Assembly: GCF_000687555.1 (NCBI RefSeq)
Contig: NZ_JHWJ01000003.1
Location: 186,001 to 250,000, forward strand
Direction of reading: 5' to 3'
Origin: [Clostridium] aerotolerans DSM 5434
GTDB lineage: Bacteria; Bacillota; Clostridia; Lachnospirales; Lachnospiraceae
DNA length: 64,000 nucleotides
Shown here: positions 26,942-32,164 of the stretch, in pieces
How the letters are laid out: each line of letters begins with the position of its first letter
How positions within the stretch are numbered: the first letter of the stretch is position 1
Made by a program: the position numbers and the translations under genes
The notes under the pieces: generated by a model
What the model was told of the DNA's origin: nothing
What the model saw: the letters and a program-made list of their open reading frames with translations, nothing else
Database searches by the model: none

Positions 26942-27328
26942 CTATTTAATCCTGGTGGCGATGCCGCAAACCAGGCGGTATACTTCATCGGATGATTTTG
27001 CGATGCGGACTGAGGCTCTTCCTGTTTCTTCTCTCCATGCCCTGTCCTCCGGGTCCATTGGAACTATGCCGCAGCCAAGTTCATTGGATATGATGATCGC
27101 ATCCGGATTATTTCTTTCTATAGTGGAAATAAAATCCTCCACACTGTCATCTGTTTTTAAAATCCGCTTTATGTATTCATGAAAATCGTGGATGATAGAG
27201 CTGCTTTCCGCAGATTTTAAGGAATCTGTCTTTCCTTCTGAGACGTTAACCATGATTCCCCGTTTCTCAGCCAGCTCCCTGGCAAAATCAAGTTTTCCCT
27301 GCCACGCTCCTCCAATAATCAGTATCAT
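26942..27328 (-). CDS. Short CobU-like protein lacking the central guanylyltransferase part
   Basis: A 128-residue protein whose two ends match CobU. The N-terminus is MILIIGGAWQGKLDFA, a P-loop in which the usual Ser/Thr after GK is leucine. The C-terminus is ISNELGCGIVPMDPEDRAWRE and SSDEVYRLVCGI, the typical CobU tail. The central segment carrying the HR guanylylation motif in the complete copy at 31.6 kb is absent. It may be a kinase-only or non-catalytic partner, or a decaying paralogue; the frame is intact and AAAGGAA precedes the ATG. Confidence 0.8.
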   Translation of the reverse strand: MILIIGGAWQGKLDFARELAEKRGIMVNVSEGKTDSLKSAESSSIIHDFHEYIKRILKTDDSVEDFISTIERNNPDAIIISNELGCGIVPMDPEDRAWREETGRASVRIAKSSDEVYRLVCGIATRIK

Positions 27329-28442: not shown

Positions 28443-29639
28443 TTATGGTATCAAATGTTCCAAATCCGGAAGTACCATGAGACTTCTCTTTAAAATCCCT
28501 TTCATAAATGCAATGGCTGTTCCATAATTGGTAAATGCCACACCGGCATCTGCCGCGCATTTTCTGCGGTACTCCATCTCTCTTTCATTCAGCATGCAGC
28601 CTCCGCAGTGGATAATCAGGCGGTAGGAAGATATATCATCGGGGAATTCTCTGCCGGATGTGGTTTCTATTACAAGTTCTTTTCCCGTAGACTCCTTCAG
28701 CCAGCGTGGCAGCTTTACCGTGCCGATGTCATCGCACTGCCGGTGATGGGTACAGCCCTCAGAGATAAGGACTTTATCCCCATCCTTTAACTCCGGAATC
28801 ACGGAAACACCTTTCACCGCATCAGTCAGAAAGCCCTTGTATCTGGCCATGAGAATGGAAAAAGAGGTAAGTAAAATATCTTCTGGCGTATCCTTATTTA
28901 CCTGTTCAAACGCCTGACTGTCGGTAATCACAAGAGCAGGCTTTGTCCCTAACCGAAGAAGAGTATCCTTAAGTTCCGTGTCACGGACGGATATAGCAAC
29001 GGCTCCTGCTTCCAGAATATCCCTTATGGTCTGCTGTTGGGGCAGTATGAGACGTCCTTTGGGAGCTGCAGTGTCAATGGGGATTACAAGAACAACCAGA
29101 TCCAGAGGCTTTAATAAATCTCCGACAATCTTCATCTTGGCATCCCCGGTATTTACAAGGGTTCCGATTCGTTCCTTTAATTCATGGATAAACAAGCCTT
29201 CGGTTGCGCTGACAGCCAAACCGTCTGAATACTCATGACTATCTGTCTGGTCACATTTATTATAAGCGACTACATAAGGTATTTTTTTCTCTTGAAACAG
29301 GCCGATGAGCTCTTCATCCATCTCAGTCTTACCAAGGGTGCCGTCAACCACTAAAACAGCACAGTCTGCCCGGTTAAGTATCTGCTTTGTCTTTCTGACT
29401 CTCATTTCCCCTAAGGCTCCCTCATCATCAAAACCAGGGGTATCAATAATGACTACCGGACCCATGGGAAGAAGCTCCATGGACTTGTAAACAGGATCGG
29501 TGGTGGTGCCTTTTACATCAGATACTACGGACAGTTCCTGTCCTGTTACTGCATTGACTACGCTGGATTTACCTGCATTGCGGCGGCCAAAAAAGCCGAT
29601 GTGTACCCGTTCAGATGACGGTGTCTCGTTAAGTCCCAT
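28443..29639 (-). CDS. hydF: [FeFe]-hydrogenase maturation GTPase HydF
   Basis: Scaffold that assembles the di-iron subcluster and transfers it to apo-hydrogenase. The 398-residue protein has a GTPase domain (GRRNAGKSS, DTPGFDDEG, YNKCDQTD), a dimerisation domain and the C-terminal Fe-S ligand pattern CTHHRQCDD followed by IIHCGGCML, the CxH...HCxxC layout of HydF. GAGGTG precedes the ATG. It lies 31 bases after hydG; hydE is not in the window. Confidence 0.96.
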   Translation of the reverse strand: MGLNETPSSERVHIGFFGRRNAGKSSVVNAVTGQELSVVSDVKGTTTDPVYKSMELLPMGPVVIIDTPGFDDEGALGEMRVRKTKQILNRADCAVLVVDGTLGKTEMDEELIGLFQEKKIPYVVAYNKCDQTDSHEYSDGLAVSATEGLFIHELKERIGTLVNTGDAKMKIVGDLLKPLDLVVLVIPIDTAAPKGRLILPQQQTIRDILEAGAVAISVRDTELKDTLLRLGTKPALVITDSQAFEQVNKDTPEDILLTSFSILMARYKGFLTDAVKGVSVIPELKDGDKVLISEGCTHHRQCDDIGTVKLPRWLKESTGKELVIETTSGREFPDDISSYRLIIHCGGCMLNEREMEYRRKCAADAGVAFTNYGTAIAFMKGILKRSLMVLPDLEHLIP

Positions 29640-29670: not shown

Positions 29671-31086
29671 CTAGAAACGGAAATCCCTGATGCCTTCTTC
29701 TATCTTCTTTAAATGATCTTCACAAATCAGCCGTACCTTTTCTTTGGGAATACGGTCTAATTCAGCTTCAATCAGCGCCTGTCCCACTTGATGGGTCTCT
29801 TCTGAGGCGTAATCCATTAAGTATTCCTTTAAGGTCATAAGCGCATTGGGCTGGCAGCAGTTATGAATCTGGCCGCTCTTTAACAGCTTCATAAAACGGT
29901 CTCCGGTCCTTCCCTCCCGGTAACAGGCGGTACAGAAGGAAGGAATGTATCCCATATCCATGAGCCAGCGTACCACCTCATCAAGGGAACGCTGATCCGA
30001 TACATCAAACTGCTCAGTATCTGTAGGGCGTTCCTCTTCCTGATATCCGCCTACACTTGTTCTGGAACCACCGCTCACCTGAGACACTCCAAGACGAAGC
30101 ACTTTTTCTCTTACCGCCTGACTCTCTCTGGTAGAAATGATCATTCCTGTATAAGGCACAGAAACCCGGATCAGAGCACATAATTTGGCAAATATCTCAT
30201 CATCAATTCCATTGGCAAATGCTGAGGGGTCAATATCATCCGCAGCCTTAATACGGGGAACGCTGATGGTATGAGGACCTACCCCTTTTGCAGCCTCTAA
30301 ATGCTCCGCATGCATCAAAAGACCTGCAAATTCATATTTATAACGTTCCAGACCAAAAAGCACGCCTAAGCCTACATCATCAATCCCCCCATCCATGGCA
30401 CGGTCCATGGCCTCGGTATGGTAGGCATAATCATGCTTTGGACCTGTTGGGTGAAGTTCTTCGTAGCTCTCTTTATGATAGGTTTCCTGAAAAAGAATGT
30501 AGGTTCCGATTCCTGCATCCTTTAGCTTACGGTAATTCTCCACAGTGGTTGCAGCTATGTTAACATTAACCCTTCGTATCTCGCCGTTCTTATGCTTGAT
30601 GGAATAAATGGTATCAATACATTCCAGGATATACTCAATGGGGTTGTTGACCGGGTCCTCACCAGCCTCTATGGCAAGACGCTTGTGCCCCATATCCTGA
30701 AGCGCAATCACTTCTTTCCTTACCTCTTCCTGAGTCAGTTTCTTTCTTGCTATGTGCTTGTTCTTTAAATGGTAAGGACAATAAGTACAGCCGTTCACAC
30801 AGTAATTGGACAGATACAAAGGAGCGAACATAACGATACGGTTTCCGTAAAAGTCTTTTTTAATCTGTTCCGCCAGATCGTAAAGCTCTTTTATCTTCTC
30901 CGGGATATCACAGGCCAGGAGCACAGAAGCCTCCCGGTGTGTCAGTCCCTTTAAGCTGCGCGCCTTTTCAATAATCTGGTCGATCAGTTCAATATTGTCT
31001 TTGTTTCTTTCCGCATAATCAAGTGTTTCAAGAATTTCTTCGTGTGAAATAAATTCTTCCGCCTTCAGCGATTTAGGATCATACAT
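29671..31086 (-). CDS. hydG: [FeFe]-hydrogenase H-cluster radical SAM maturase HydG
   Basis: Tyrosine-cleaving radical SAM enzyme that supplies CO and cyanide ligands. The 471-residue protein has the CX3CX2C motif in NYCVNGCTYCPYHLKN and the C-terminal cluster ligands CTACYREGRTGD and IHNCCQPNA, which separate HydG from ThiH. GGSRTSVGGY is also typical. AAAGGAAG precedes the ATG. It is between the TM1266-like regulator and hydF. Confidence 0.96.
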   Translation of the reverse strand: MYDPKSLKAEEFISHEEILETLDYAERNKDNIELIDQIIEKARSLKGLTHREASVLLACDIPEKIKELYDLAEQIKKDFYGNRIVMFAPLYLSNYCVNGCTYCPYHLKNKHIARKKLTQEEVRKEVIALQDMGHKRLAIEAGEDPVNNPIEYILECIDTIYSIKHKNGEIRRVNVNIAATTVENYRKLKDAGIGTYILFQETYHKESYEELHPTGPKHDYAYHTEAMDRAMDGGIDDVGLGVLFGLERYKYEFAGLLMHAEHLEAAKGVGPHTISVPRIKAADDIDPSAFANGIDDEIFAKLCALIRVSVPYTGMIISTRESQAVREKVLRLGVSQVSGGSRTSVGGYQEEERPTDTEQFDVSDQRSLDEVVRWLMDMGYIPSFCTACYREGRTGDRFMKLLKSGQIHNCCQPNALMTLKEYLMDYASEETHQVGQALIEAELDRIPKEKVRLICEDHLKKIEEGIRDFRF

Positions 31087-31186
31087 AAATGTTACTTCCT
31101 TTCTTTAGGGTCAGCTTTTTGCTTCTCCGTCAGTGGTATATTACTTCATAAGACCTTGGTCTTTTGAAATTATTTCCGGCTTTTTA

Positions 31187-31438
31187 TCAGCCGCTTACTC
31201 CCTGGTAAGCTGTCTTGGAGCTGATTCCTTTCAGCTTCCCGATCTTTCCCGTCAATGCAGAAATGGCGGTCTGCGGCCCGTCAACCGCTATGCTTATGAT
31301 GCAAACTCCTTTTTGAGGATATGGGATTCCCATACGCCCGATGATGATATTGCGGTAATCATGAAGGATGTCATTCAACAGCTCTACAGACTCCTCTTCC
31401 TCCACCACGATTCCGATAACAGCAATTCTAGTTTCCAT
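31187..31438 (-). CDS. TM1266-type iron-only hydrogenase system regulator
   Basis: An 83-residue ACT/ferredoxin-like-fold protein: METRIAVIGIVVEEEE, then DILHDYRNIIIGRMGIPY and VCIISIAVDGPQTAISALTGK. Small proteins of this kind commonly sit beside hydE/F/G and are called putative hydrogenase regulators; the molecular role is not established. GGAGG lies seven bases before the ATG. It is the first gene after the leader RNA and terminator at 31487-31584. Confidence 0.87.
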   Translation of the reverse strand: METRIAVIGIVVEEEESVELLNDILHDYRNIIIGRMGIPYPQKGVCIISIAVDGPQTAISALTGKIGKLKGISSKTAYQGVSG

Positions 31439-31486
31439 GTCTGTTCCTCCATCTTTATCACACCTGATACGGTTCTTTTAAAATGC

Positions 31487-31512
31487 AAAAAACCGCACCA
31501 AAAAGGTGCGGC
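31487..31512 (-). terminator. Intrinsic terminator in front of the TM1266-hydG-hydF genes
   Basis: GCCGCACC, a TTTTT loop and GGTGCGGT form an eight-pair stem on the minus strand (31512-31505 with 31499-31492), followed by TTTTTT to 31487. It is about 50 bases before the ATG of the regulator gene and about 100 bases after the cobU stop. Confidence 0.88.
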
Positions 31513-31584
31513 AAACATAACATTCCCCAAATGCCGAACCTTCTACCTCAAACAACGTTTTTGGTGTCAGGATACTGCTATGTT
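31487..31584 (-). ncRNA. Candidate structured leader RNA ending in an intrinsic terminator
   Basis: Reading the minus strand from about 31584, AACATAGCA (31584-31576) can pair with TGTTATGTT (31522-31514), closing a 9-bp helix with one G-U pair. Inside are nested short pairings: CCT/AGG (31571-31569 with 31541-31539), ACC/GGT and AAAC/GTTT, closed by a three-base loop. One base after the closing helix begins a terminator (31512-31492 stem, five-base loop, then T6). A good promoter ends just before the structure. It does not match a riboswitch consensus I can recall. It could be a riboswitch-like attenuator for the hydrogenase maturation genes or a separate small RNA. Confidence 0.5.
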
Positions 31585-31587
31585 AAG

Positions 31588-31616
31588 ATAATAACATATT
31601 TGAGGATTTTTTTCAA
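31588..31616 (-). promoter_or_regulatory. Promoter of the leader RNA / hydrogenase maturation unit
   Basis: TTGAAA (31616-31611) overlaps the cobU stop codon, a 17-base spacer follows, then TATTAT (31593-31588). Both boxes match five of six consensus bases. Initiation a few bases downstream would place the RNA start at or near the closing helix of the structured leader. Confidence 0.7.
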
Positions 31617-32164
31617 TTAGTTCCTTTTACGATTATGGGAATTCCGGCTATCACTTCTATCACGCGATCCGAAATACGGGCAATCTCCTGATTGATTCTT
31701 GCCAGGGCCTCCCGGTATTCATTGGTCTCAATGCTATAGCTGTCTCCATCGGAAAAAACTTCATTGGTCACTATGGTAAGGTTACCTGTCTGGTGTTGAA
31801 TTCGGCTGATTCCTTCTAATATTTCCGACACCGCCTCATGGGGCGTCAGTAAAACCTCCCCCTTTTCCATAAGGCCAAAAAGTTCGTTGGATACCAGATT
31901 TGACATACATTCCAAAAGGACCTCCAAAACCGCCTCCTGTTGTGAGAAATGGACTTCTTTTAGATTCCGGTAACATTCCACCGTCTCAAATCCTTTTTCT
32001 GCTCTCATGAGACGGTGCCTCTGAATTCGTTTTTCACATTCCTCATCCCAGGGCTTCATGGTAGCGATATAGATGCGCCTTCCCTTGGACCGGCTGGTAA
32101 TCATGTTTTCTGCATATTCTGATTTTCCGCTTCCGCTTCCTCCGATGATCAGGGTTATCATCAT
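31613..32164 (-). CDS. cobU: Adenosylcobinamide kinase / adenosylcobinamide-phosphate guanylyltransferase
   Basis: Complete CobU, 183 residues, with P-loop GGSGSGKSEYAE, the guanylylation-site region RIQRHRLMR and the tail IVTNEVFSDGDSYSIETNEYR. It phosphorylates adenosylcobinamide and activates it with GMP. The ATG overlaps the cobT stop by four bases. A second, shortened paralogue is at 26.9 kb. Confidence 0.94.
   Translation of the reverse strand: MMITLIIGGSGSGKSEYAENMITSRSKGRRIYIATMKPWDEECEKRIQRHRLMRAEKGFETVECYRNLKEVHFSQQEAVLEVLLECMSNLVSNELFGLMEKGEVLLTPHEAVSEILEGISRIQHQTGNLTIVTNEVFSDGDSYSIETNEYREALARINQEIARISDRVIEVIAGIPIIVKGTN

Follow-up and report, generated by a model that had tools for sequence, protein, structure and literature searches.

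A putative transcription attenuator built around a double tandem-GA hairpin in front of [FeFe]-hydrogenase maturation genes in [Clostridium] aerotolerans

The leader and its gene neighborhood

The window, i.e. the whole 64-kb stretch of [Clostridium] aerotolerans DSM 5434 DNA that was analyzed, carries on its minus strand, in this order, cobT, cobU, a leader region, a gene for a TM1266-family protein, hydG and hydF, followed by a cobS-like gene and more cob genes. This is the arrangement of TM1266 and hyd genes behind cobU that an earlier note on this DNA had described. The TM1266-family gene (31187..31438, minus strand; TIGR03959) is the first gene behind the putative attenuator, and its product is a candidate for the factor that reads it. 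The next two genes, hydG (29671..31086) and hydF (28443..29639, both minus strand), match TIGR03955 and TIGR03918, respectively, above cut-off. The cobalamin cluster contains two CobU-like genes, at 26942-27328 (-) and 31613-32164 (-), and the match of the former is confined to the C-terminal part of the family and scores below the model cut-off.

In this genome the conserved leader block and the cobU stop overlap. By DNA search, the leader was recovered near full length in 24 of 25 genomes of the genus, the 25th being 67% complete, and it is 98% shared with two genus members; the closest named relatives among the fetched records are Clostridium sp. 12(A) and Lacrimispora. At seven genus loci (L019-L025) there is no abutting cobU-like ORF, and the conserved block still starts at TTGAAA. 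When the 100-nt leader was folded and compared with shuffled sequences, the z-score was -2.58 and 1 of 200 shuffles folded equally well, with part of this stability contributed by the terminator.

The block begins with the promoter that the earlier note had proposed, TTGAAA-17-TATTAT (31588..31616, minus strand), which has a TG before the -10 element and agrees with 10 of 12 consensus positions. The TTGAAA is identical in all 23 distinct leaders of the genus. Across 46 leaders, promoter-like sites (at least 9 of 12 positions, at most 45 nt upstream of the hairpin described below) occur in 19, compared with 6.8% of base-shuffled controls, and several of the distant leaders inspected have a TTGACA/TATAAT-like promoter directly in front of the hairpin. 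Because the distant leaders inspected keep only the inner hairpin, several of them with a promoter right before it, this promoter is probably genuine, and the start of the RNA probably lies close to the hairpin.

The block ends in a strong intrinsic terminator (31482..31512, minus strand), with a stem at 31512-31492 and a U-rich tail. All seven counted pairs of its stem are formed in each of the 23 distinct genus leaders, which bears out the strong terminator previously noted before the TM1266-like gene.

A covarying hairpin with two tandem-GA loops

Between promoter and terminator lies a hairpin of 33 nt (31539..31571, minus strand), the conserved core of the leader, in which UGA-N4-RAA on one strand faces UGA-N4-RAA on the other. 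The hairpin is thus built with two tandem-GA internal loops and has near two-fold symmetry; the internal-loop bases are highly conserved. With exceptions, its consensus is YCU-GA-(3 to 4 bp)-RA-(3 to 4 bp and loop)-GA-(3 to 4 bp)-RA-AGR. It is the best match in the window to model R3 (42.3 bits), a model that contains an identical hairpin from locus L034. From 9 to 11 of its 11 pairs are formed in all 23 distinct genus leaders. On its own the hairpin is weak, at a computed -3.1 to -6.5 kcal/mol.

Covariation was assessed in two alignments. The first (A3) comprises 21 TM1266 leaders, gathered with a pattern in which the two ends were set (UGA on strand 1, RAA on strand 2) and the RAA of strand 1, the UGA of strand 2 and the pairing of the inner helices were free; of the 26 hairpins of a preceding set (A2) it omits 5, namely L048 and four whose middle helix is shorter. 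The second (A5) comprises 47 hairpins, found with a descriptor in which most of the four middle pairs were obligatory and the inner and outer pairs, though optional, added to the score; seven hairpins whose middle helix has 3 bp are omitted from it, as are L089 and 12 doubtful loci removed by hand. UGA-N4-RAA stands on both strands in 18 of 21 and 39 of 47 hairpins, respectively, a pattern that is partly imposed by the searches.

Covariation in relatives, which the earlier note had suggested as a check, was found in this hairpin. Among the 47 hairpins there are 101 double-sided cells versus 32.5 in shuffles (reached in 0 of 500), and at most 20 remain when the partner strand is slid; the covariation score is 0.579 versus 0.185 (0 of 500). 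For the 21 TM1266 leaders the corresponding values are 19 cells versus 6.3 and a score of 0.287 versus 0.171 (each 0 of 500), while sliding the partner strand leaves at most 3 pairs and 5 cells. One inner pair of the hairpin is A-U in 25, G-C in 15 and U-A in 7 of the 47. Six of the 11 pairs are altered on both sides in the 21 leaders, a number of pairs that does not rise above shuffles in either alignment (80 of 500 with 21 leaders, 307 of 500 with 47 hairpins), nor does the number of further pair types (470 and 167 of 500). As would be expected of a riboswitch, the hairpin combines conserved structure with covariation across taxa, two of the five covariation measures failing to exceed shuffles.

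Several other folds were tried. The 9-bp helix that the earlier note had placed around the fold (31584-31576 with 31522-31514) does form in the window, with 9 of 9 pairs, but is not conserved in the genus: all nine pairs are found in 2 of the 23 distinct leaders, and 3 to 8 in the other 21 (5 in 14 of them). An RNA on the opposite strand was rejected on RNAalifold energies (-18.1 versus -27.5 kcal/mol). The first consensus fold, in which helices P1 and P2 enclose the inner hairpin, was made into a covariance model (R1) and yielded 32 matches (E up to 5) on 77 loci fetched by TM1266 protein similarity, all on the coding strand and upstream of TM1266. The fold itself was dropped, as those distant leaders found by R1 that were inspected keep the inner hairpin only. 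In 397 genomes of the family R1 gave 14 matches, two of which are the window's genome and its sister; five lie before TM1266 (L113-L116, L122), and the other seven, with no hyd gene near, were set aside (L117-L121, L123, L124). The inserts of L117, L118, L120 and L123 resemble inverted repeats at promoters. In L120 (G407) and L123 (G109), both of genus g86, a promoter-like site before an unidentified gene is flanked by a conserved inverted repeat, AAGUCCUCU...AGAGGACUU.

Mutually exclusive pairings

The 3' strand of the hairpin has a second possible partner. The sequence AAGGUUCGGCA (31532..31542, minus strand), which overlaps this strand and includes the linker, can pair with UGCCGCACCUU (31503..31513, minus strand), the 5' half of the terminator, at 10 of 11 positions in the window and at 9 or 10 of 11 in all 23 genus leaders. 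In distant leaders the two antiterminator strands have changed together: GAAAGAUACAG with CUGUAUCUUUC in L101, GAAAGGCC with GGCCUUUC in L105, and AAAGACGCAG with CUGUGUCUUU in L122. A permutation test was carried out on 46 leaders (descriptor score of at least 6, more than 40 nt upstream of the start). Mean best complementarity was 9.22 with a leader's own downstream sequence versus 7.66 with swapped ones (0 of 5000 permutations), and 8.60 versus 7.49 (0 of 5000) in the 36 leaders without TTCGG.

Computation thus finds in the leader both mutually exclusive pairings, such as form the expression platform of a riboswitch, and a hairpin that overlaps the antiterminator of an intrinsic terminator, as in a protein-directed attenuator. 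In each of six leaders folded, the computed minimum holds the terminator, and in five of the six it also holds the hairpin, in full or in part (it is absent in L101). Forcing the antiterminator costs 0.8 kcal/mol relative to the minimum in the window and 1.6 to 8.4 kcal/mol in five relatives. Since the terminator is in every computed minimum, the hairpin is weak and the forced antiterminator is less stable, the model calculations suggest that switching would depend on kinetics or on a factor.

A second copy at the hydG ribosome-binding site

A second, weaker double-GA hairpin lies at 31102..31134 (minus strand), and its 3' end runs into the Shine-Dalgarno-like sequence of hydG, AAAGGAAG (31095..31102, minus strand; assigned by inspection). 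Against R3, a model that includes the hydG copies of relatives, it scores 17.9 bits (E 0.035), second in the window to the core hairpin. This copy recurs at the same place in relatives, 9 to 15 nt before the hydG start and extending into AAGG, and does so in other genera also. Allowing for a CUAA variant, such Shine-Dalgarno-proximal hairpins precede 21 of the 119 hydG genes that come from the TM1266-bearing set; nine of these belong to the window's genus, and one, L094, looks like chance. Where a genome has no TM1266 match, 1 of 34 hydG genes is preceded by one (L310). Among 179 distinct hydG upstream regions, 22 (L094 included) have a hairpin at or over the Shine-Dalgarno sequence, at most 20 nt from the start, as would a translational operator. 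From this position, the second copy probably acts on translation.

Distribution among hyd genes and genomes

A model built from TM1266 leaders only (R2) matched 41 of 391 genomes of the class at E of at most 0.05. The following counts cover the 30 loci returned, with 12 further match rows outside them. TM1266 leaders account for 15 loci (two being the window's genome and its sister), and the hairpin also lies before hydG at four (L136, L139, L146, L150), before hydE at two (L135, L141) and before hydF at one (L131). Together, 22 of the 30 are leaders of TM1266 or hyd genes; one precedes a FecCD permease gene (L137), and seven were set aside, five with no hyd gene near (L143, L145, L147, L149, L153) and two antisense inside hydE genes (L134, L148). 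In one search, matches above E of about 0.1 were counted as chance.

With R3, 37 of 40 genomes were matched, most of them having been picked for earlier matches. This search added a leader before aspA-hydF (L362), where aspA encodes an aspartate ammonia-lyase (NCBIfam PRK12273 over cut-off, TIGR00839 below); 10 of the 15 regions fetched after it had no hyd gene (L363, L364, L366, L367, L370-L375) and were rejected. Passages of one paper place aspartate ammonia-lyase genes with hyd genes and state that the enzyme can supply H-cluster nitrogen in vitro (PMC11736057). Across the phylum, R3 matched 15 of 353 genomes, and 8 of 14 new loci fit the pattern (three before hydE, three before TM1266, one at a hydG Shine-Dalgarno sequence and one before FecCD), the remaining six having no hyd gene (L384-L388, L390). 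Leaders with the hairpin before a FecCD-family permease gene were seen in L377 (G850), where the copy adjoins TM1266, and in L137 (G786). The best NCBIfam models for the FecCD gene are vitamin B12, F420-0 and iron permeases, all below cut-off.

A descriptor scan of the upstream regions of hyd and TM1266 genes found hairpins in 58 of 541 distinct regions: TM1266 45 of 187, hydG 8 of 155, hydE 3 of 93 and hydF 2 of 106. These counts are not prevalences, many loci having been gathered by similarity to the window's TM1266 and four (L328-L331) for earlier matches. The controls gave no hairpin in 20 shuffles per region and none in 547 reverse complements. The hydE matches L087 and L089 and the hydG match L094 may be due to chance. 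The double-GA hairpin is thus found on several transcripts of one pathway, as would the site of a trans-acting attenuator protein.

TM1266 as candidate reader

Of 73 leader-type hairpins, from a sample in which TM1266 loci are over-represented, 59 have the TM1266 gene directly behind them. The family is described in TIGR03959 as 'iron-only hydrogenase system putative regulator', and the structure entry PDB 2nzc names it only as a hypothetical protein; its Pfam and NCBIfam matches include no DNA-binding domain. Pfam matches it to the NikR C-terminal domain, which suggests a ferredoxin-like fold. Ferredoxin-like topology is also used by RRM proteins. In the RNA-seq table of one paper, the Thermotoga neapolitana homologue is listed together with hydE, hydF and hydG, as an association only (PMC7039931).

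A helix of near two-fold symmetry is the shape that might be expected for the site of a symmetric dimer. Because the conserved bases of the hairpin are so arranged, a dimeric protein is favored as reader, and TM1266 is the first candidate. Pointing to it are the symmetry of the site, its position next to the protein's own gene, the co-occurrence of the two, and the annotation as a regulator without a DNA-binding domain. Co-occurrence of hairpin and TM1266 is suggestive of a trans-acting protein, with two exceptions. These are genomes without a TM1266 match that carry the hairpin at hydG, Shine-Dalgarno-proximal in L310 (G609) and leader-type in L298 (G433). TM1266 is present in other species sampled from both genera, and in G433 the contig stops about 300 bases past hydG; the missing match is possibly due to an assembly gap.

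Most of the TM1266 genes scanned (all but the 45 of 187) have no detected hairpin. When 51 TM1266 proteins with the leader were compared with 116 without it, the residues conserved most strongly were common to both sets. A residue signature was rejected, as six positions differ in conservation by more than 0.3, but none of the six is invariant in one set only and none is decisive.

It is conceivable, and we put it forward tentatively, that TM1266 founds a new class of RNA-binding regulators. As a small homodimer with a ferredoxin-like fold, it would read a dyad-symmetric double tandem-GA hairpin at terminators and ribosome-binding sites. Assembly of the H-cluster (hydE, hydF, hydG, aspA) and an associated FecCD-type transporter, of either the iron or the cobalamin class, would in this way be coupled to the availability of iron or an H-cluster intermediate.

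A proposed mechanism and its alternatives

We suggest with good confidence, on the strength of sequence comparison, that the leader acts in cis to attenuate transcription of [FeFe]-hydrogenase maturation genes, a confidence that extends to the attenuator and not to its reader. This reading draws on conservation, covariation, mutually exclusive pairings and association with hyd genes, all of them computed. It retains from the earlier note, which had seen the layout of an attenuation riboswitch, a structured and covarying attenuator leader tied to hydrogenase maturation genes, but not the 9-bp fold proposed there.

In the scheme that we infer, for start site and direction of switching as for reader and signal, transcription would begin about 10 nt before the hairpin, as placed by the promoter. 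A factor would hold the double-GA hairpin closed and sequester its 3' strand (GAAGG/GAAAGR), so that the terminator forms and the operon is off. Once the hairpin is released, its 3' strand and the next 6-7 nt would pair with the terminator's 5' half, letting RNA polymerase read on. The second copy, at the hydG ribosome-binding site, would add control of translation. The reader would be a symmetric protein dimer, with TM1266 as first candidate, and H-cluster assembly would come under feedback control, in which iron or a cluster intermediate might serve as co-signal.

The same terminator/antiterminator platform could serve a riboswitch in which the hairpin binds a small ligand directly (iron, SAM, or a product of tyrosine or the H-cluster) and no protein takes part; the two readings differ only in the reader. 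The anatomy would be identical, the internal-loop bases are highly conserved, the element also precedes FecCD-type permease genes, and hydG hairpins occur in the two genomes without a TM1266 match. On the other hand, a plain hairpin with two 2x2 GA loops offers little room for a metabolite pocket, and the near two-fold symmetry, which is absent from the earlier note, is more easily explained by a dimer; it fits a dimeric protein at least as well as a metabolite-binding riboswitch. Direct binding of a metabolite or metal is unlikely in our view, if well worth consideration.

Two further explanations would do away with the switch or enlarge it. That the hairpin is incidental, the terminator ending the cob operon alongside an independent promoter or closing a stand-alone small RNA, would suit the strength of the terminator and the overlap of the block with the cobU stop in this genome. 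It is most improbable, given that the block, promoter included, is kept at genus loci without an abutting cobU-like ORF, that the hairpin recurs elsewhere before hydE, hydF, hydG, aspA-hydF and FecCD genes, and that antiterminator complementarity is specific to each leader. The other is a larger RNA of Lacrimispora type, started further upstream and including the promoter segment, with P1 (UCCUCA/UGAGGA) and P2 (UAUGU/ACAUA) enclosing the hairpin. RNAalifold prefers this fold on the 23 genus leaders. Its covariation within the genus is modest: on 16 sequences, 93.5% of cells are paired and three pairs show double-sided changes, a number of pairs that 99 of 500 shuffles reach. We consider it highly improbable, as P1 and P2 take their 5' strands from the promoter itself and are absent from the distant leaders inspected, several of which have their TTGACA/TATAAT-like promoter directly before the hairpin. 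P1 and P2 probably reflect genus-specific DNA conservation or coincidence. The genus-level complementarity between promoter segment and leader (31617-31518; UCCUCA/UGAGGA and UAUGU/ACAUA) includes some double-sided changes.

Relation to known regulatory systems

No Rfam family (release 15, 4227 families) matched the window or 12 relative loci, and with the leader alone at a lax threshold there were 11 matches, all far below gathering scores. A known riboswitch or sRNA was rejected on these scores, in line with the earlier failure to recognize a riboswitch class here. In the open full-text literature, as far as titles, abstract openings or passages go and with subscription literature mostly outside the search, no RNA regulator of hyd maturation genes was found. 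We therefore class the leader as a new and apparently uncatalogued attenuator family.

The BglG/LicT-RAT, PyrR and TRAP systems are protein-controlled attenuators acting at intrinsic terminators. Like them, this leader has a hairpin, competing antiterminator and terminator, and a candidate regulator gene alongside; unlike them, it has no Rfam match, is a plain hairpin with two tandem-GA loops and serves [FeFe]-hydrogenase maturation genes. With transcription-attenuation riboswitches it shares a promoter, a compact conserved fold, an antiterminator/terminator switch and recurrence before the genes of one pathway in several families, but its conserved bases are nearly two-fold symmetric rather than arranged as a multi-helix pocket, and any ligand is putative. 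The second copy resembles hairpins that sequester ribosome-binding sites in that it overlaps or abuts the hydG Shine-Dalgarno sequence; here, however, the same motif is also a predicted transcription attenuator within one operon. The TM1266 family (TIGR03959; PDB 2nzc), whose gene directly follows most leaders found, has no mode of regulation in the descriptions that we found.

For the way in which anaerobes adjust the costly synthesis of the [FeFe]-hydrogenase cofactor to demand, the literature searched describes no RNA-level mechanism. A conserved RNA site on several transcripts of the pathway makes RNA-level control, and a role of TM1266 in it, testable; the double-GA site might also be a handle on biological hydrogen production.

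A second conserved module, approximately CGUUCUGA-n-GAGGG-n-CCC-RA-n5-AAGGCGGU, was observed upstream of the pre-TM1266 terminator, in several loci just after a first hairpin (L172, L181, L184 and L213 of genus g362, and L158, L163, L198, L202, L193 and L381). Five of these loci (L213, L172, L381, L184, L181) were searched against Rfam without a match to the module, which is perhaps a tandem variant of the double-GA hairpin or a separate aptamer.
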